From: Azospirillaceae bacterium
GTDB taxonomy: Bacteria; Pseudomonadota; Alphaproteobacteria; Azospirillales; Azospirillaceae
DNA length: 55,317 bases
Assembly: GCA_035645145.1 (NCBI GenBank)
Contig: DASQNC010000066.1
Location: 1-55,317, forward strand
Direction of reading: 5' to 3'
The translations under genes were made by a program, and so were the position numbers. The notes under the pieces are model-generated. The model made no database searches and was not told where the DNA came from. It saw nothing but the letters and a program-made list of their open reading frames with translations. Shown here in pieces: positions 28,715 through 41,275 of this stretch. Position 1 is the stretch's first letter. The number at the start of each line of letters is the position of its first letter.

Positions 28715-30190
28715 TTAGGGGGTCGCGCCGTCGAGTTCCCCCTGGCCCGGGGGCGGGATGGGGACGCCTTCCTCGTTGTATTGCTTCAGCTTGTTGCGCA
28801 GCGTCCGGATCGAGATGCCGAGGATGTTCGCGGCATGGGTCCGGTTGCCCAGCGTGTGGTGCAGGGTTTCCAGGATCAGGTCGCGTTCCACGTCGGCGAC
28901 CGTGCGCCCCACCAGGGCCGCGGTGGGCCTTGCCGGGACGGCCTGGGATCCCGGGACGGACGGGTTGCCATGGGTGTAGGCGGCATGCGCGTTGGCATGT
29001 GCGTTGGACCGCGCCGCGGCGTGGTTGGCCGAAGGCGCCGCCAGAAGGGTGGTCGCCGCGACCAGGGCCTGTGCGGGATCCCGCGCCAGGGATTGGCCCG
29101 CCAGGATGATCGCGTCGGGTTCGATGACCTCGCCGCGGGTCAGCAGGACCGCACGGTGCATCGTGTTCTCGAGTTCACGCACATTGCCGCGCCAGTGATG
29201 GGCCAGGATCTTGGCGCGTGCCGACGGTGACAGGGTCCGCGCATCCACACCGTTGGACTCGGCGTACTTGGCCACGAAATGATCGGCCAGAATGGAAATG
29301 TCGGCCGGCCGTGCGCGCAATGGCGGAAGCTGCAGGTTGACCACGTTCAGCCGGAAATAGAGATCCTCGCGGAACGTGCCGTCCTCGACCGCCTGCTCCA
29401 GGTCGCGGTTCGAGGTCGCAATCAGCCGGATGTTCACCTTCACGGGATCGGTGCCGCCGACGCGGTCGATCTCCCGCTCCTGGATCGCGCGCAGCAGCTT
29501 GGCCTGCAGGCGGATGTCCATCTCGCTGATCTCGTCCAGGAGCAGCGTTCCGCCGTTGGCCTCCTCGAACTTGCCGATCCGCCGGGCGACCGCGCCCGTG
29601 AAGGCGCCCTTCTCGTGCCCGAACAGCTCGGATTCCAACAGATGCTCGGGGATGGCGGCGCAATTGACCGAAACGAACTTTTCGTTGGCGCGCCGGCTCT
29701 TCTTGTGGATGTAGCGCGCCATCACTTCCTTGCCGGTGCCGCTTTCCCCGGTGATGAGGACCGTGGCGTCCGACGGGGCGATCTGGTCCGTCATGCGCAG
29801 GATCGCCTGCATGGACGGGTCCGCGCTGATGAACTGGTTCGCCTCTTCGGCCACGGCCTCCAGGACGGCGGCGATCAGCTCCGCATCCGGGGGCAGGGGG
29901 ATGTACTCCTTGGCCCCGGCGCGGATGGCCCGCACGGCGGCCTGGGCATCCGTGCCCACCCCGCAGGCGACAACGGGAACGTGGATGCGTTCCGCCTTCA
30001 GACCTTCGACGAAGCGCGCGATGTCGAGTTTCACGTCGATCATCACCAGGTCGCCGCCCTGGCCGTTCCGAAGCGCCGCGATCGCACGGTCCACGGTCTC
30101 GATGTGGGCGACCTTGGCGCCCCGCTGCATCGCGATCTTCCCGGCGGCCGTGATGTGGCCTTCCAGCGTTCCGACGATCAGCAGGCGCAT
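28715..30190 (-). CDS. flbD: Sigma-54-dependent flagellar activator FlbD
   Basis: 491 aa. N-terminal receiver-like domain (1-115) keeps an aspartate at 52 (VMIDVKLD) but lacks the paired acidic residues near the start (MRLLIVGTLEGHI) and the conserved KP lysine (YIPLPP instead). Classical phosphorylation is therefore doubtful, as noted for FlbD in Caulobacter. AAA+ domain about 122-355 with Walker A GESGTGKE (148-155), GAFTGA (195-200), which contacts sigma-54, and LLLDEISEM. After a variable His/Asn/Ala linker, a Fis-type helix-turn-helix ends the protein (NRTHAANILGISIRTLRNKLKQY). It should activate the sigma-54 promoters of flgE, fliK and flgK. Confidence 0.95.
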   Translation of the reverse strand: MRLLIVGTLEGHITAAGKIAMQRGAKVAHIETVDRAIAALRNGQGGDLVMIDVKLDIARFVEGLKAERIHVPVVACGVGTDAQAAVRAIRAGAKEYIPLPPDAELIAAVLEAVAEEANQFISADPSMQAILRMTDQIAPSDATVLITGESGTGKEVMARYIHKKSRRANEKFVSVNCAAIPEHLLESELFGHEKGAFTGAVARRIGKFEEANGGTLLLDEISEMDIRLQAKLLRAIQEREIDRVGGTDPVKVNIRLIATSNRDLEQAVEDGTFREDLYFRLNVVNLQLPPLRARPADISILADHFVAKYAESNGVDARTLSPSARAKILAHHWRGNVRELENTMHRAVLLTRGEVIEPDAIILAGQSLARDPAQALVAATTLLAAPSANHAAARSNAHANAHAAYTHGNPSVPGSQAVPARPTAALVGRTVADVERDLILETLHHTLGNRTHAANILGISIRTLRNKLKQYNEEGVPIPPPGQGELDGATP

Positions 30191-34700: not shown

Positions 34701-35378
34701 TTAGGCGGGCCTCAAGACGGCGAGAATATCGGCCAACTTCACCCGGGACTTGCCGAGCACCAGGGCGACGTCGCCGCCATCGTGCTCCACGGACTTGACC
34801 GTGCCGATGGTGCGCGGTCGGTATTCGATGTCCTTCCCCTGTGCGTCCTTCGCCTGCACGGCGAATTTGTAGACGCCTGCGGGGGCTGTGCTGCCATCCG
34901 CGCGTTTGCCGTCCCACTCCACGCGTTGGGTCTCGCCATCCGCACCTGGGGTGACGCTCAACGTCTGGACCGTCTTGCCGGTGGAATCGACGATCACGGC
35001 CTTGATCGACGCGGCCTTCTTGGAAAGGTCGAAGCCGAACTCGGCCTTGCCATCCGCCAGTTCCATCTGGTCGCCAACCGTTTCGACCCTCTTGCCGACA
35101 TAGCCCAGGGCCTCGCTGATGGACGAGGTCCGAATGGTGGCGATCAGGTCGTCCAGCTTCTGGTTCGACTTGATCTGCTGCTCGACGCCCGTGAACTGCA
35201 CCAGCTGCTGCGTGAACTGGGTCGGATCCTGCGGCTGCAGTGGATCCTGGTACTGCAACTGCGTGGTCAGCATCTTGAGGAACATGTCGGTGTTCTTCGA
35301 AAGCTGCTGAAGCGCGCTCTCGTTGGCGTTCGAGCCGGCGGTCTTGGGCGCGTTGCTCGGGGGCGTGATGGTCGTCAT
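34701..35378 (-). CDS. flgD: Flagellar hook assembly (capping) protein FlgD
   Basis: 225 aa. The N-terminal conserved block DMFLKMLTTQLQYQDPLQPQDPTQFTQQLVQFTGVEQQIKSNQKLDDL (about 31-78) is the export and cap region. The C-terminal part folds as Tudor/FnIII-like domains, with VEWDGKRADGSTAPAGVYKFAVQAKD. The length matches alphaproteobacterial FlgD. It lies 18 bp after fliK and is probably cotranscribed with it from the sigma-54 promoter at 36816-36831. It is a cap on which FlgE subunits assemble. Confidence 0.96.
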   Translation of the reverse strand: MTTITPPSNAPKTAGSNANESALQQLSKNTDMFLKMLTTQLQYQDPLQPQDPTQFTQQLVQFTGVEQQIKSNQKLDDLIATIRTSSISEALGYVGKRVETVGDQMELADGKAEFGFDLSKKAASIKAVIVDSTGKTVQTLSVTPGADGETQRVEWDGKRADGSTAPAGVYKFAVQAKDAQGKDIEYRPRTIGTVKSVEHDGGDVALVLGKSRVKLADILAVLRPA

Positions 35379-35396: not shown

Positions 35397-36776
35397 TTAC
35401 ACGCGCACATCGAGGCGGCCGTTGCCGACGCGGGCATAGGCGACCTGTGCGGCGGCGGCCTCTTCGGCCTTGGCATTGTTTCCACGGTTCCCGCCGCGCG
35501 ATCCCCGGCCGGAGCCGTTCTCACCCGAGCCCTCGCGGCCGGCGAAGCCCGACCGCGGGTCCTCGCGCAGGCTGAAGCTGAGGCTTCCGGTGTCCGTCTT
35601 CACGCCCGCGTCCGACAGCGCGCGTTCCAAACCACGGGCATCGCGTTGCAGCAGTTCCAGTGTCTGCGGGCTGTCCACCGCGATCTGCGCCTTGACCCGG
35701 CCGTCGGCGGCGAATTCGAGCTTCACATCGATGCGGCCCAACTCGGCCGGCCGCAGATGGAAGGAGATCTGGTCCTGCCCGTCCGAGACGGCCTTCTGCA
35801 GCCGCACCGTGATCTGGTCCATGGCGTGGGGCTGCGCGGGCGCCCCCTGCTGCGGCGCCATATTGGTGGCGCGGAGCTGGCTGGCGAAATCCGTCTGTTG
35901 GGCTTGCTGGTGCGCCTGAAGCTGGGCCGCGGCGAAGGGCGTCCCGTCGTGGCCCTTCGGCAGTCCGGCGGCGCCGTTCTCGGGCTTGTCTCCACGGTCC
36001 CGTCCAGGCCCACCGGTGTCATTCCCGAAAAGGGCCGTGGCGACAGCCGGTGTCCCCCGGGCGGTCTCCGCGCCGCCCGAATGCGGGGCTTGGGCGTGCT
36101 CGGCGGCATCCGCGTCGGCCGTCCGGCCGGCCAGCGCCTGCGCGGTGCCTGCGATTTGCTGGGCGCCGGCCCCTGCCGCCTTGGTGACGTCCGCATCAGC
36201 CGTGGGCTCAACGGCCTTGGCAAGGGATTCCGTGGGCGCCATCGGCACGGTGTTGTCGGTCGCTCCACCGCCTTGCGGCGCGACCTGGGAGGCCGCCTGC
36301 TGGTGGGGCAATGCCGCCAAGAGGGGGGTCGCGGCTGCCGCTTCGGGCGCCAGCAGGTCACTTTCTAGCGTTTGCGCATCGACCGTATGACCGAGCAAGG
36401 CATCCGCCAAGTCGCCCTCGGCCTTGCCGTCCTGGGCCCCACCGTCCTGGGCCTCGCCACCCTGGAGGGCGATCCCTTCCGTGGCCGCCGGCGGGGGGGC
36501 GGTGGGCATGACGAGCGCTGCCAGGAGCGCCAATGCCGGGTCCGAGGGTGTCGGAATGTGTTCGGTGGGGACGGCGCCAATGGGCGCCGCGACCGCCGGT
36601 GCTGCGGCTGGTGCCGGCATGGCGGTCGGGAGTGGCAATGCGCCGTCGGCCGCGCCATCCAGGAAACCGGCGACGGCAGCCGCAAAGGCCGTGGCCGCCG
36701 TCGCGTTGCCGGTGCCACCTGCAAGGGGAGTGGCCGGTGTCGCTGTCGGTGTGGGCTGGATGATGAAGGGATTCAT
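35397..36776 (-). CDS. fliK: Flagellar hook-length control protein FliK
   Basis: 459 aa. The first 290 residues are low-complexity Ala/Pro/Gln/Asp, as usual for the FliK ruler. The Flg_hook domain is at about 315-400: VRLQKAVSDGQDQISFHLRPAELGRIDVKLEFAADGRVKAQIAVDSPQTLELLQRDARGLERALSDAG. The tail is Gly/Asn/Arg-rich. It measures hook length and switches export specificity through FlhB. It is first gene of fliK-flgD, 40 bp downstream of the -12 element of a sigma-54 promoter. Confidence 0.93.
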   Translation of the reverse strand: MNPFIIQPTPTATPATPLAGGTGNATAATAFAAAVAGFLDGAADGALPLPTAMPAPAAAPAVAAPIGAVPTEHIPTPSDPALALLAALVMPTAPPPAATEGIALQGGEAQDGGAQDGKAEGDLADALLGHTVDAQTLESDLLAPEAAAATPLLAALPHQQAASQVAPQGGGATDNTVPMAPTESLAKAVEPTADADVTKAAGAGAQQIAGTAQALAGRTADADAAEHAQAPHSGGAETARGTPAVATALFGNDTGGPGRDRGDKPENGAAGLPKGHDGTPFAAAQLQAHQQAQQTDFASQLRATNMAPQQGAPAQPHAMDQITVRLQKAVSDGQDQISFHLRPAELGRIDVKLEFAADGRVKAQIAVDSPQTLELLQRDARGLERALSDAGVKTDTGSLSFSLREDPRSGFAGREGSGENGSGRGSRGGNRGNNAKAEEAAAAQVAYARVGNGRLDVRV

Positions 36777-36815: not shown

Positions 36816-36831
36816 AGCAACATCGGTGCCA
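36816..36831 (-). promoter_or_regulatory. Sigma-54 promoter for fliK-flgD
   Basis: On the minus strand: TGGCACC-GATG-TTGCT, with exactly 10 bp between the GG and the GC. It differs from the consensus TGGCACG-N4-TTGC only at the seventh base. It lies 40 bp before the fliK ATG. Confidence 0.88.
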
Positions 36832-36931
36832 ACCCTGTGTGTTGATGCCCCGCCGGCTTGTGCGGGCGTGGCGTGCTGCGTTTGCCTATTGCGCGCACAT
36901 CATTAATTCATGCGCACCCACGATCCGCGCG

Positions 36932-36946
36932 CGGCAAGGGCTGCCG
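36932..36946. promoter_or_regulatory. Candidate FlbD operator, copy A
   Basis: Perfect palindrome CGGCA-AGGGC-TGCCG. Its centre is about 107 bp from the GG of the flgE promoter and about 110 bp from that of the fliK promoter, a normal enhancer distance for sigma-54 activators. The FlbD assignment is inferred from context. Confidence 0.55.
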
Positions 36947-36953
36947 TGTGTGG

Positions 36954-36968
36954 CGGCAGCAACTGCCC
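36954..36968. promoter_or_regulatory. Candidate FlbD operator, copy B
   Basis: CGGCA-GCAAC-TGCCC, one mismatch from perfect symmetry. Its centre is 22 bp from copy A, two helical turns, so both would lie on the same DNA face. Confidence 0.5.
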
Positions 36969-37044
36969 GGCAATATCCGTGTCACGCATGCGTGTCGCGT
37001 GATTTGGATGTCCGAACATCCCAGTTGCCCCGTCCCCGCGACCT

Positions 37045-37060
37045 TGGCACGGGGCTTGCT
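37045..37060 (+). promoter_or_regulatory. Sigma-54 promoter for flgE
   Basis: TGGCACG-GGGC-TTGCT is a perfect match to TGGCACG-N4-TTGC(A/T), with 10 bp between GG (37046-37047) and GC (37058-37059). It lies 43 bp before the flgE ATG. Confidence 0.92.
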
Positions 37061-37102: not shown

Positions 37103-38665
37103 ATGAGCTTGTTCGGCGCTTTGAACGCCGGTGTCGCCGGTATGAATGCGCAATCCCGCGCGATCGGCCACATCTCTGACAACCTCGCCAACGTGCAGAC
37201 CGTCGGCTACAAGCGCGTCGACACCAAGTTCGAGACGCTGGTCACCAGCTCGAACGCCGGGTCGCACGTGCCGGGCGGCGTGATTTCCTCGCCGGTTTAC
37301 CGTAACGGTCTCCAGGGCAACCTGATCGGGACCCAGTCGGCCACCGACATCGCCATCAAGGGTGCCGGCTTCTTCGCCATCTCGGATCGCCCGGACGGTC
37401 AAGGCACCTTCTACTCGCGTCGCGGTGACTTTTCGCTCGATCGCCGGGGTTACATGGTGAACGGCGCCGGGCAGTATCTGCGCGGGTGGCCCGTGAACAC
37501 CAATGCGAACGGGGACATCACCGTCAACGCCTCGTCGCCGAAGACGATCCAGATCGACCCCACGCCCGTGCCGCCCAAGGCGACCACCACCGTCACATAT
37601 GGTGCGAACCTGCCGAGCAATGCGGCGGTGCGTGAGGTGGAGGAGTATGCCCTCACGACGGGTGGTAGTAATTTGCAGGTTGTGGTAAACGGTACAACCA
37701 TAGGTCCGCTTGCCGGTCCGTTTGGCACTGCCACCGCCGCTGCAAGCGCCCTTGCGGCGGCAATCAATGCCGATGCGACGCTGACAGGTGCCGGCTACAG
37801 TGCGTCCAATGCCGGTGGCGTTCTGCGGATCAGCGGTCCGACCGACGGTTCCTCCTTCACATCCTCTAATCTGACGGGTACTGCGCCGTTCGCCGCCGTT
37901 AGTCCGACGCAGGCTGTGGCCGGTGTCAGGCCTGCGCCCTTCACGTCTTCAATGACGGCCTACGACACCCTGGGCAATGAGCACACCGTCAATCTGACTT
38001 GGACAAAGCTGCCGCAGGCAAACTTCTGGCAGTTGGATGTGAATATTCCGACGGCGACCAGCGGTGGTAGCCTTGGACCTTACAACGCCCAATTCGACAC
38101 GGACGGCAAGTTCCTGGGCTTCGATACCAACGGATCGTTGGCCAGCCTCGAAGACACCGATGGCATTGTCACGATGGCCGCTGTCACCTTCCCCGGCGCG
38201 GCGGGCCAGAACCTTACGCTGGACTTCGCGGCGGAGGGGCTCACCCAGTTCGCCGACGCAAAGCGCCAGCTGGCGCCGCGGGGGCTGAACCAGGACGGTT
38301 ACGGGGCCGGCCAGTTCCGGGATCTGGTGATCGACGAGGAAGGCTTCGTCACCGCCAACTACACCAACGGGACGACCCGCACCCTGTACCAGATTCCGCT
38401 GGCCAACTTCGCCAATCCCGGGGCGCTGGTTCGGGCGGACGGCGGATACTTCGTCGAAACCCGCGACAGCGGCATGGCGACCATGAACGCCGCCGGGTCG
38501 GGCGGCACCGGCGGGCTGACGCCCAGCGCGCTGGAAGGCTCGAACGTGGACATCGCGGACGAGTTCTCGAAGATGATCGTCACCCAGCGCGTCTTCTCCG
38601 CAAACGCGAAGACCATCTCGACCAGTGATGACATGCTGGAGCAGGTGATCCAGCTCAAGCGCTGA
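37103..38665 (+). CDS. flgE: Flagellar hook protein FlgE
   Basis: 520 aa. The N-terminus MSLFGALNAGVAGMNAQSRAIGHISDNLANVQTVGYKR and the C-terminus SNVDIADEFSKMIVTQRVFSANAKTISTSDDMLEQVIQLK are the conserved axial-protein helices. ATG 37103 follows GGAG. Frames reaching upstream of it cross the sigma-54 promoter and are not translated. It polymerises into the hook under the FlgD cap. The central, surface-exposed part (about residues 179-322) uses noticeably different codons, with many GGT, AGT, GTT and GTA, from the flanks, which suggests a domain swapped by recombination. Confidence 0.96.
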   Translation: MSLFGALNAGVAGMNAQSRAIGHISDNLANVQTVGYKRVDTKFETLVTSSNAGSHVPGGVISSPVYRNGLQGNLIGTQSATDIAIKGAGFFAISDRPDGQGTFYSRRGDFSLDRRGYMVNGAGQYLRGWPVNTNANGDITVNASSPKTIQIDPTPVPPKATTTVTYGANLPSNAAVREVEEYALTTGGSNLQVVVNGTTIGPLAGPFGTATAAASALAAAINADATLTGAGYSASNAGGVLRISGPTDGSSFTSSNLTGTAPFAAVSPTQAVAGVRPAPFTSSMTAYDTLGNEHTVNLTWTKLPQANFWQLDVNIPTATSGGSLGPYNAQFDTDGKFLGFDTNGSLASLEDTDGIVTMAAVTFPGAAGQNLTLDFAAEGLTQFADAKRQLAPRGLNQDGYGAGQFRDLVIDEEGFVTANYTNGTTRTLYQIPLANFANPGALVRADGGYFVETRDSGMATMNAAGSGGTGGLTPSALEGSNVDIADEFSKMIVTQRVFSANAKTISTSDDMLEQVIQLKR

Positions 38666-38976: not shown

Positions 38977-39471
38977 TCAGGCAACGATGGCGATGCGCGG
39001 CCCTGACGCCAACGAGGGCTTTTCGACAGCTTCGGCCTCGGCGGGGGGCGTGGGGGCATTCGCCGACGCACCTTCGACCGGTCTGGCTGCTGTCCGGTTC
39101 AGCACCGAGGCTGCTTCCGCAATTCCATCCTGGTGATCGGACTGAACGCGGGATTCCCCCTCGGCGCTCTGTTGCCGGCGGTACGCTTCGACTTGCATCT
39201 CCGACGGATACTGCCGTTGTACATCGCCCGTGGCCGGATCAAGGAAGGACACGACCACGACATTTGCTTCTGCGTCGAAGCTCAGCCGCGGGCTGACGTA
39301 GAACTCCGTCGGCTGCTCATCCTGGAAGGGCGCGCCTTCATCCTCTTCCATCTGTGCGGCAAGGGGAGGCGGGCCATTCGGATTGGCGCTGGGGTCGGAG
39401 CGCAGCTCTGACGGCTGCCCGTCAACGGGCGAGCGAATCGCAAGAGCGCTCTGGACGGCTGGCGTAATCAT
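38977..39471 (-). CDS. FlaG-like flagellar protein
   Basis: 164 aa. The only ordered part is about residues 56-98 (FYVSPRLSFDAEANVVVVSFLDPATGDVQRQYPSEMQVEAYRR). This reads like the FlaG motif, in which a strand, a DPxTGEVIRQIPP turn and a helix follow each other. Both ends are Ala/Pro/Glu-rich and probably disordered. It has a strong ribosome site (AGGAGG) and its own terminator, so it is a monocistronic gene between flgE and flgK. FlaG proteins influence filament length or assembly. Assignment is by motif and location, and a general flagellar protein of unknown role is the alternative. Confidence 0.75.
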   Translation of the reverse strand: MITPAVQSALAIRSPVDGQPSELRSDPSANPNGPPPLAAQMEEDEGAPFQDEQPTEFYVSPRLSFDAEANVVVVSFLDPATGDVQRQYPSEMQVEAYRRQQSAEGESRVQSDHQDGIAEAASVLNRTAARPVEGASANAPTPPAEAEAVEKPSLASGPRIAIVA

Positions 39472-39571: not shown

Positions 39572-39586
39572 CGGCAATAGATGCCG
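39572..39586. promoter_or_regulatory. Candidate FlbD operator upstream of flgK
   Basis: Perfect palindrome CGGCA-ATAGA-TGCCG, inside a wider CCGGCA-N5-TGCCGG. Its centre is 75 bp from the GG of the flgK sigma-54-like promoter. It is also about 100 bp upstream of the divergent FlaG-like gene. Confidence 0.55.
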
Positions 39587-39652: not shown

Positions 39653-39668
39653 TGGTACGGAATTTGAA
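39653..39668 (+). promoter_or_regulatory. Sigma-54-like promoter for flgK
   Basis: TGGTACG-GAAT-TTGAA. The -24 element and spacing fit, but the -12 GC is GA. It is probably a weak sigma-54 promoter. If correct, transcription starts too late for the ATG at 39668 and supports ATG 39716 as the flgK start. Confidence 0.5.
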
Positions 39669-39715: not shown

Positions 39716-41275
39716 ATGTCGCTTGATGTTTCGCTGCGCACTGCGATCAGCGGTCTCGCGGTCACCCAAAAGGGTTTGGATGTGGTTTCGCGCAACGTCG
39801 CGAACGTTCAGACCCCGGGTTACACGCGCAAGATCCATCAGCAGGCGCCCTTGGATCCGCAGGTTGGCGGCGCGCGGGCGCTGGATCCGATCCGGATCGT
39901 GAACGAGGCGCTGCAGCGCGACTACATCAAGCAGAATGGGGTGGTCGGCTATCTCGAGACCCGGGAGTCGATCCTGAAACGTATCGAGGTCGCCCACGGA
40001 AACCCCGAGGACCACAACTCGCTCGCCAGCTTGTACGGCAAGCTCCAGGAGGGTTTCGCTTCGCTTGCTGGCACGCCTGAATCCGGGCCCTACCGGCAGC
40101 GCGTCGTGGACGAGGCAAGGCGGCTGGCCGAGGGTATGAACGGCCTCGCCGAAGTTTACAATAAGGAGCGCGACCGCACGCAGGAGGAAATTGCCGCCTC
40201 CGTCCGGAGGATGAACACGCTCACCGCGCAGATCGCGGACTTGAACCGTCAGATCAGCATGGCGGTGGTTCAGGGGCGCGGCGTCCCGGACCTGGAGGAT
40301 CAGCGCGACGAGTTGGTCCGGAACCTGTCCGAGCAGATGGACATCAACACGGTCAAGCGCGCCGATGGCGTGGTGGTGGTCCTGACCAGTAACGGGCGTA
40401 CGCTGGTCGAGCGGTCAGCGCAGCCGCTGACGTTCCAGATGACAAAGACCGACGAGCGGTCCTACTACGACCGTGACGGCCGATCGGGGATCAATCCGAT
40501 CCTGCTGAACGGGGAGGATGTCACCCCCGAACTGCAGGGGGGCAAATTGGGCGCCCTGATCGAGTTGCGCGATAAGACCATTCCCCAGTTCCAGGCCCAG
40601 CTGGACGAGTTTGCCTACCGGCTGGCAACCGCGTTCGAAAGCGCCTGGGGAACGAACGACAATGGCACGCCCGCCGATTACACGGACGACATCCATTCGG
40701 GGCTGAAGCTGTTTGTGGACTCGGACCCGGCGCAGCCACGGGATGTGCCCGTGAAGTATCCGGCTGGCGTTGCGCCGCCGCTGAGCAACCCTGCCGAGCG
40801 CCAGCGCATCGGTTTCGCGTCCCGCATCATGATCAACCCCACCGTTTCGGCCGACCCCAATCTGGTGCAACGTGGCACGAACATGAGCCCGGCGATCACC
40901 AGCCCGGCCGACACGCGTCTGATCGATGCCGTTCGCAGGAATGTCCTTGAACGCGCCGACACGCCCTTCGACACCGCGGGCTTGGGGCCGTTCGGGAAGA
41001 TTTCCACCGGGCTGCCGCCGGCCGGCAGTTTTGCGGACTACGCGACCGAGGTCGTCGCCTATCAGGCCGTGACGCGCAGCGACACCACCGTGGGCATCCA
41101 GGGTGAGGTTCGGTACCGCGAAGCGCTCAGCACCCGTCTCCAGGACGAGACCGGGGTGAACCTGGACCAGGAAATCACCCTGCTGATCCAGCTGCAGCAG
41201 ACCTACGGTGCGAACGCCCGTGTGGTCACCACCAACCAGCAGATGTTCGACGATCTCCTCCGGGCCTTCGGCTAA
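39716..41275 (+). CDS. flgK: Flagellar hook-associated protein 1 FlgK
   Basis: 519 aa from ATG 39716. The N-terminal axial helix MSLDVSLRTAISGLAVTQKGLDVVSRNVANVQTPGYTRK and the C-terminal helix DEEITLLIQLQQTYGANARVVTTNQQMFDDLLRAFG-type (NLDQEITLLIQLQQ...) are both typical of FlgK. The coiled-coil part at about 140-200 (ERDRTQEEIAASVRRMNTLTAQIADLNRQI) also fits. It forms the junction between hook and filament. It is cotranscribed with flgL (22 bp gap). Confidence 0.96.
   Translation: MSLDVSLRTAISGLAVTQKGLDVVSRNVANVQTPGYTRKIHQQAPLDPQVGGARALDPIRIVNEALQRDYIKQNGVVGYLETRESILKRIEVAHGNPEDHNSLASLYGKLQEGFASLAGTPESGPYRQRVVDEARRLAEGMNGLAEVYNKERDRTQEEIAASVRRMNTLTAQIADLNRQISMAVVQGRGVPDLEDQRDELVRNLSEQMDINTVKRADGVVVVLTSNGRTLVERSAQPLTFQMTKTDERSYYDRDGRSGINPILLNGEDVTPELQGGKLGALIELRDKTIPQFQAQLDEFAYRLATAFESAWGTNDNGTPADYTDDIHSGLKLFVDSDPAQPRDVPVKYPAGVAPPLSNPAERQRIGFASRIMINPTVSADPNLVQRGTNMSPAITSPADTRLIDAVRRNVLERADTPFDTAGLGPFGKISTGLPPAGSFADYATEVVAYQAVTRSDTTVGIQGEVRYREALSTRLQDETGVNLDQEITLLIQLQQTYGANARVVTTNQQMFDDLLRAFG

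Follow-up and report, generated by a model that had tools for sequence, protein, structure and literature searches.

The closest described control region is that of Caulobacter crescentus. Judging from its title in the reference list of PMC3096577, the paper of Mullin and Newton (1993) deals with ftr2 and ftr3 as 'downstream' elements of the divergent units flaN and flbG, and a second title in this list, Gober and Shapiro (1992), speaks of a 3' enhancer in Caulobacter. According to passages of two papers FlbD acts at ftr in Caulobacter and is controlled by FliX (PMC3096577, PMC3930126). Passages of these and of a third paper describe FlbD as an NtrC-type activator under the control of FliX and of early basal-body assembly (PMC3096577, PMC3930126, PMC7064773). 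Closer to the organism at hand, a passage on Rhodospirillum centenum mentions, as unpublished results, that FlbD mutations disturb the polar flagellum and not the lateral flagella (PMC2890560), and in Azospirillum brasilense FlbD is tied to lateral flagella, as far as the passage seen goes (PMC3169532).

Text searches for the letters of ftr and for flaN/flbG returned no paper giving ftr sequences. Fumeaux 2014 is cited for FlbD binding sites. We take flaN to be flgK and flbG to head the fliK operon of Caulobacter, in agreement with the gene order found here. A further point of reference are NtrC-type tandem enhancers, e.g., that of glnA, in which two dyad sites lie a few helical turns apart and roughly 100 bp upstream.

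The window, i.e., the whole stretch of 55,317 nucleotides of an Azospirillaceae bacterium analysed here, contains the hook genes in an uncommon order. On the reverse strand are fliK, coding for hook-length control (35397-36776; PF02120, E 4.7e-15), and flgD, coding for the hook cap (34701-35378; best model NF005176, E 9e-41). On the forward strand is flgE for the hook protein (37103-38665; NF004242, 373.4 bits, cut-off 365). The genes originally named in this place, flgE and fliK-flgD, are thus those which the family models indicate, the best flgD model being below its cut-off while several FlgD models match. Between fliK and flgE are two σ54 promoters pointing apart, TGGCACC-GATG-TTGCT (TGGCACCGATGTTGCT) for fliK-flgD at 36831-36816 on the reverse strand (score 18.2) and TGGCACG-GGGC-TTGCT (TGGCACGGGGCTTGCT) for flgE at 37045-37060 on the forward strand (score 20.7); the weights of the scores are our own and were set from the σ54 consensus. 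Checked base for base, both are exact TGGCACN5TTGCW sites, with GG at -24, GC at -12 and consensus spacing, separated by 213 bp. The original prediction, which had called them near-perfect, was exact in letters and positions.

The ATG of fliK (36776) follows 39 bases past its σ54 site, that of flgE (37103) 42 bases past its own. From the geometry of σ54 promoters transcription would be expected to start around 36805 for fliK-flgD, about 29 nt ahead of the fliK ATG, and around 37071 for flgE. Both promoters appear to be real: a σ54 site is present ahead of flgE in 27 of 27 usable loci from other genomes of the same family and upstream of fliK in 53 of 64 anchored FlbD loci of the class.

Two palindromes are located between the promoters. 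The first, CGGCA-AGGGC-TGCCG (CGGCAAGGGCTGCCG), is exact and spans 36932-36946; the second, CGGCA-GCAAC-TGCCC (CGGCAGCAACTGCCC), has one mismatch and spans 36954-36968. The centres, 36939 and 36961, are 22 bp apart, to the base the spacing originally claimed. From these centres the GG pair of the flgE promoter is about 85.5 and 107.5 bp away and that of the fliK promoter about 109.5 and 131.5 bp, which agrees with the predicted range of 85-132 bp. Probably, both palindromes are FlbD binding sites of the ftr type. Two features count against this: the mismatch in palindrome 2 and the central five bases of both palindromes, which depart from the A/T-rich centre of the class consensus. Altogether we consider it about 80% probable that the region is a two-site FlbD enhancer which serves both flgE and fliK-flgD.

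In Caulobacter an IHF site is reported between enhancer and promoter. In the window an AT-rich patch at 36896-36912, between the palindromes and the fliK promoter, has a weak IHF-like match with two mismatches and is a possible bend site. The match is not significant, as 62 of 259 tiles of 213 bp across the window contain one equally good or better, and an IHF site as a firm component was rejected.

The presumed activator is encoded nearby. As originally stated, the neighbouring operon encodes FlbD (28715-30190, reverse strand): the NCBI equivalog model NF050807 matches with 771.8 bits against a cut-off of 750, and PF00158 and HTH_8 domains are present. A fliX gene is found on another contig of the genome (C25:494077-494481; PF10768, 125.9 bits, cut-off 25), about 0.17 kb from a σ54-like site of flgI; fliX and flgI are adjacent and divergent (L250:10077-10720), and the flgI side has a one-mismatch palindrome and the σ54-like site. 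A single rpoN is present (one TIGR02395 match, 432 bits, over the cut-off). The recognition region of FlbD is nearly invariant. The expression used to locate it found the region in 64 of 90 flbD loci and failed in 26, among them a Brevundimonas locus (L096) in which it is evident by eye; 45 of the 64 cores are identical to that of the window and all 64 fit GNRTHAA.ILGISIRTLRNKL.

Compared with the described systems, the window has two σ54 promoters pointing apart around two ftr-like sites, as is characteristic of a divergent unit of the flaN/flbG type. Going by titles and passages, it resembles flaN/flbG of Caulobacter in that divergent σ54 flagellar units are governed from two ftr elements. 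It differs in the position of the sites, which in Caulobacter are 'downstream' or 3' according to the titles, whereas in the window both are upstream of both promoters. The gene pair differs as well if, as we presume, flaN corresponds to flgK and the fliK operon begins with flbG. With NtrC-type enhancers the window has in common a pair of dyad sites, separated by a few helical turns, at roughly 100 bp upstream; here, however, the activator is flagellar, control is by FliX instead of a known partner kinase, and two promoters surround one pair of sites. Since the Caulobacter titles describe the same kind of control region, the divergent two-site layout is already known in kind. The unusual partner in the window is flgE. 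Neither the Caulobacter precedent nor the uncommon place of flgE was part of the original prediction.

Are the palindromes just G+C-rich repeats that arose by chance, or a terminator-like feature between divergent genes? The frequency in the genome would allow this. CGGCA-N5-TGCCG is present in 40 copies in 3.89 Mb compared with 54 copies of the reversed control; the palindrome alone therefore carries no signal, and we rejected it as a rare self-standing one. Similarly, the σ54 pattern TGGCACN5TTGCW by itself is not above chance, with 65 sites at up to one mismatch (5 exact plus 60) versus 98 for the reversed control. A different picture emerges when the two are considered jointly. An exact palindrome is located within 200 bp upstream of 5 of the 65 σ54 sites where 0.13 are expected (Poisson p = 3e-7), and at 51-101 bp upstream of four of the five exact σ54 sites where 0.01 is expected; the fifth paired promoter is a one-mismatch σ54 site with an exact palindrome at 77 bp. 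Among the 50 listed of the 54 copies of the reversed palindrome, no pairing with a σ54 site was observed. The two promoters of the window share one palindrome in this count. With the window left out, 3 of 63 σ54 sites remain paired where 0.13 are expected (p = 3e-4), and of the 3 exact ones 2 remain so (p = 2e-5). The genome scan for CGGCA-N5-TGCCG near σ54 promoters, which the original prediction had suggested as a check, thus shows enrichment of the pairing and not of the palindrome alone. The original condition for refutation, equal frequency at random coding positions, holds for the palindrome by itself and fails for the palindrome with a σ54 promoter. This position-specific pairing, together with the class-wide conservation relative to permuted arms described below, makes a chance repeat very improbable, and a terminator would have no role between diverging promoters.

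Which genes carry the combination? An exact palindrome plus a σ54 site precede a flagellin gene (PF00669), a flgF-like rod gene, fliK, flgE and a gene on contig C71. At flgI a σ54-like site has a one-mismatch palindrome upstream, and at flgK an exact palindrome is accompanied by a weak promoter. The palindrome therefore recurs at flagellar σ54 promoters other than those of the window's hook genes. The flgK copy is a third palindrome within the window (39572-39586, exact), followed by the weak σ54-like site TGGTACGGAATTTGAA at about 39653-39668, below the threshold of the scan. Probably, flgK begins not with the first ATG of its open frame but further downstream, with an ATG near 39716. Between flgE and flgK is a small gene on the reverse strand (38977-39471) which is weakly FlaG-like (PF03646, E 0.025, below the cut-off); a similar stretch is located between flgE and flgK in a relative (G076, locus L254). 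Another palindrome, at C25:494760, is located past the flgI promoter and was rejected as functional because it is inside the initial codons of flgI; the one-mismatch copy upstream is more likely to be the site in use.

The palindromes might be recognised by a σ54 activator other than FlbD. The genome encodes four further strong PF00158 proteins, a pair on C25 and one on C71 among them, and the surroundings were read for one; furthermore, FlbD binding in the window is a prediction from sequence, and the class sample consists of FlbD-bearing genomes. The one lone exact σ54 site without a palindrome (C44:85085) is informative in this respect. Its distance from the domain of a different σ54 activator is about 0.65 kb, and the gene which follows looks by eye like one for a periplasmic binding protein. 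That an exact site so close to another activator has no palindrome, and that palindromes are concentrated at the flagellar promoters of this genome and accompany fliK in 22 of the 35 family groups, all selected for FlbD, argues for FlbD and leaves little probability for a different activator. On the same contig GTCCGGGTTCCCGGAC-type palindromes are positioned between the exact σ54 site and the activator domain (L002:1620-1690), possibly a separate enhancer system.

We then turn to the class. FlbD was detected in 189 of 385 sampled alphaproteobacterial genomes at E 1e-120, in 107 above the cut-off. A scan of named genomes with an FlbD alignment gave at least 80 loci; the first 11 of these, with 58-74% identity, appear to be true FlbD. 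In total 90 flbD loci were read, these 11 from named genomes and 79 others, some with added upstream stretches. As fliK was detected in 59 and flgD in 58 of the 90 loci, flgD was used as the anchor where present; 64 loci had a fliK/flgD anchor and 26 had none. A usable σ54 site upstream was available in 53 of the 64. Eleven were dropped, ten because no σ54 site at the set distance exceeded the threshold and one because it is at the edge of a contig; in four of the ten (L210, L221, L230, L240) a σ54-like site near the anchor was removed by the distance filter. The term fliK-side promoter denotes position, fliK starts not being annotated singly. Thresholds were chosen after the σ54 scores and, for the first set of loci only, the palindromes had been seen; in the second set the palindromes were scored fresh.

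Of these 53 loci, all selected for having FlbD, 35 have a palindrome with at most one mismatch 40-150 bp ahead of the fliK-side promoter, and in 21 of them it is exact. Twenty-nine palindromes with permuted arms averaged 0.03 loci (exact) and 0.6 loci (up to one mismatch). When all 5-base inverted repeats with spacers of 2-9 were ranked in the fliK-side upstream regions, CGGCA with spacer 5 headed the list. The second set reproduces the effect in weaker form, with 11 of 21 loci versus 24 of 32 in the first. Counted by FlbD-selected family group, the palindrome is present in 22 of 35, any permuted arm in at most 3. The median distance from centre to GG is 95.5 bp in the 35 loci. Eighteen of the 53 fliK-side promoters have no recognisable palindrome, which counts against the proposed enhancer. 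As judged from these loci, the combination of fliK-side palindrome and promoter is common to much of the FlbD-bearing part of the class. One record titled Bordetella sp. (a MAG, L095) has a fliF-fliG-fliN-flbD-flhA cluster of the alphaproteobacterial type; the name is probably wrong.

A more serious alternative concerns the number of sites. The window may contain two independent one-site enhancers side by side, each palindrome for one promoter and nothing shared. Two sites are not needed in general, since a single exact palindrome accompanies other promoters of this genome, namely those of the flagellin gene, the flgF-like gene and the C71 gene. In the class, tandem second copies are a minority of 8 of 53 loci (spacings 18, 19, 19, 19, 21, 22, 23, and 32 bp), which counts against a two-site reading, and of the 35 fliK promoters with a palindrome 27 have no second copy in range. 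Furthermore, the flgE relatives in two genomes (G076, G033) have a palindrome ahead of flgE with no fliK detected opposite. On the other hand, both sites of the window are in looping range of both promoters, and NtrC-type enhancers act in both directions. Finally, two copies between back-to-back promoters are not peculiar to the window. They recur in three loci with fliK opposite flgK (L100, L179, L200), in which two CGGCA-N5-TGCCG-like sites 18-19 bp apart start 81-110 bp upstream of the fliK promoter. We thus regard separate enhancers as unlikely and prefer a shared two-site enhancer.

How did flgE come to be part of this arrangement? In the relatives the order is fliK flgD (flgE) fliF fliG flbE fliN flbD flhA. 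Where flgK could be placed among the 90 loci, it precedes fliK on the other strand in 6 cases and shares the strand of fliK in 2. A flgE match is present in 41 loci, every time on the strand of fliK, and in 40 ahead of fliF, the other having no fliF match. A flgE opposite fliK was observed in none of the 90 loci in a one-sided search in which 49 had no flgE match at all and several ended near fliK. The window thus pairs fliK with flgE, unlike the 6 loci of relatives in which fliK was seen opposite flgK. In L100, L179, and L200 flgK is opposite and flgE is on the fliK strand ahead of fliF; in the window flgE is in the place of flgK. Thirteen loci have a divergent σ54 site within 420 bp; among them the opposite gene reads as FlgK-like in five (L100, L178, L179, L200, L220) and as a different one in L229.

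A class search gave ten more FlgE loci. Eight (L288-L294, L297) have flgE after fliK-flgD, with no TTGCW-type σ54 site in the 500 bp before flgE; L296 has flgE after flgD, and L295, in which fliK was not detected, has a σ54 site before flgE. Within the family of the window 29 flgE loci were fetched, two of which (L045, L057) were left out because the matches begin inside the protein. The remaining 27, all from other genomes, are those with a σ54 site ahead of flgE without exception; a palindrome near this promoter is present in just 3, which counts against the proposed enhancer, and in three loci fetched more widely (L253-L255) no fliK was detected. The search covered just one further genome of this genus (G052, 96% complete), which has no FlgE match at E 1e-30 and is possibly from a non-flagellated organism or a broken assembly. 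A strict pattern for the whole divergent unit retrieved only the genome of the window among 385, a result which says little since the pattern was built from the window's own spacings.

In view of the fliK/flgK layout of L100, L179, and L200, of the σ54 site which accompanies flgE throughout the family, of the scarcity of the palindrome there and of the absence of a detected fliK in L253-L255, the fliK/flgE pair appears to have arisen locally, by rearrangement of genes around an older control region. This suggests that the enhancer can stay while the surrounding genes are reshuffled, flgE here having its own strong promoter opposite fliK.

The gene on C71 deserves a separate account (C71:82961-83980; L252:5959-6981, reverse strand). 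An exact σ54 site and an exact CGGCA-N5-TGCCG are located upstream. The protein of 340 residues has no match in Pfam or NCBIfam, and a full-text search for NPLQHIP retrieved no paper. Relatives are present in 151 of the 385 class genomes, 119 among the 189 with FlbD and 32 without it. An alignment of eight members shows a common core around 'DFLDVINPLQHIPVV..LYRE.TGDTI'. In the best 20 loci, counting that of the window's genome, a σ54 site is located close to the expected start in 18. A palindrome at a distance of 40-150 bp accompanies 11 of these 18 sites, 6 times in exact form, compared with an average of 0.07 for permuted arms. Judged by its promoter, this 'INPLQHIP' protein is probably a new member of the FlbD regulon and probably made together with the late flagellar genes.

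What may happen at a shared two-site enhancer? FlbD together with FliX would be switched on once the early basal body and the export gate are assembled. FlbD dimers would bind both palindromes, two helical turns apart, and then oligomerise. Looping of the DNA would allow open-complex formation by σ54 RNA polymerase at the flgE and the fliK-flgD promoters. Since one FlbD enhancer would drive both promoters, the hook subunit, the hook ruler and the hook cap would be turned on in one stage of assembly. Binding, looping, the use of the site pair by both promoters and the timing are what we infer from the layout.

A bolder version, possible though doubtful, is that the hook operon was split around its own enhancer: flgE would have left a fliK-flgD-flgE order, inverted and come under the promoter opposite; a single FlbD assembly would now drive both units from promoters of different strength, maybe setting their ratio. 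CGGCA-N5-TGCCG plus a σ54 site would moreover constitute a class-wide FlbD code which names members of the regulon without experiments and points to the 'INPLQHIP' protein.

With these gradations, the findings extend FlbD/ftr control of hook genes, described in Caulobacter, to another alphaproteobacterial family by way of a sequence rule which can be checked by machine. The same rule, palindrome plus σ54 site, picks out a conserved protein of unknown function.
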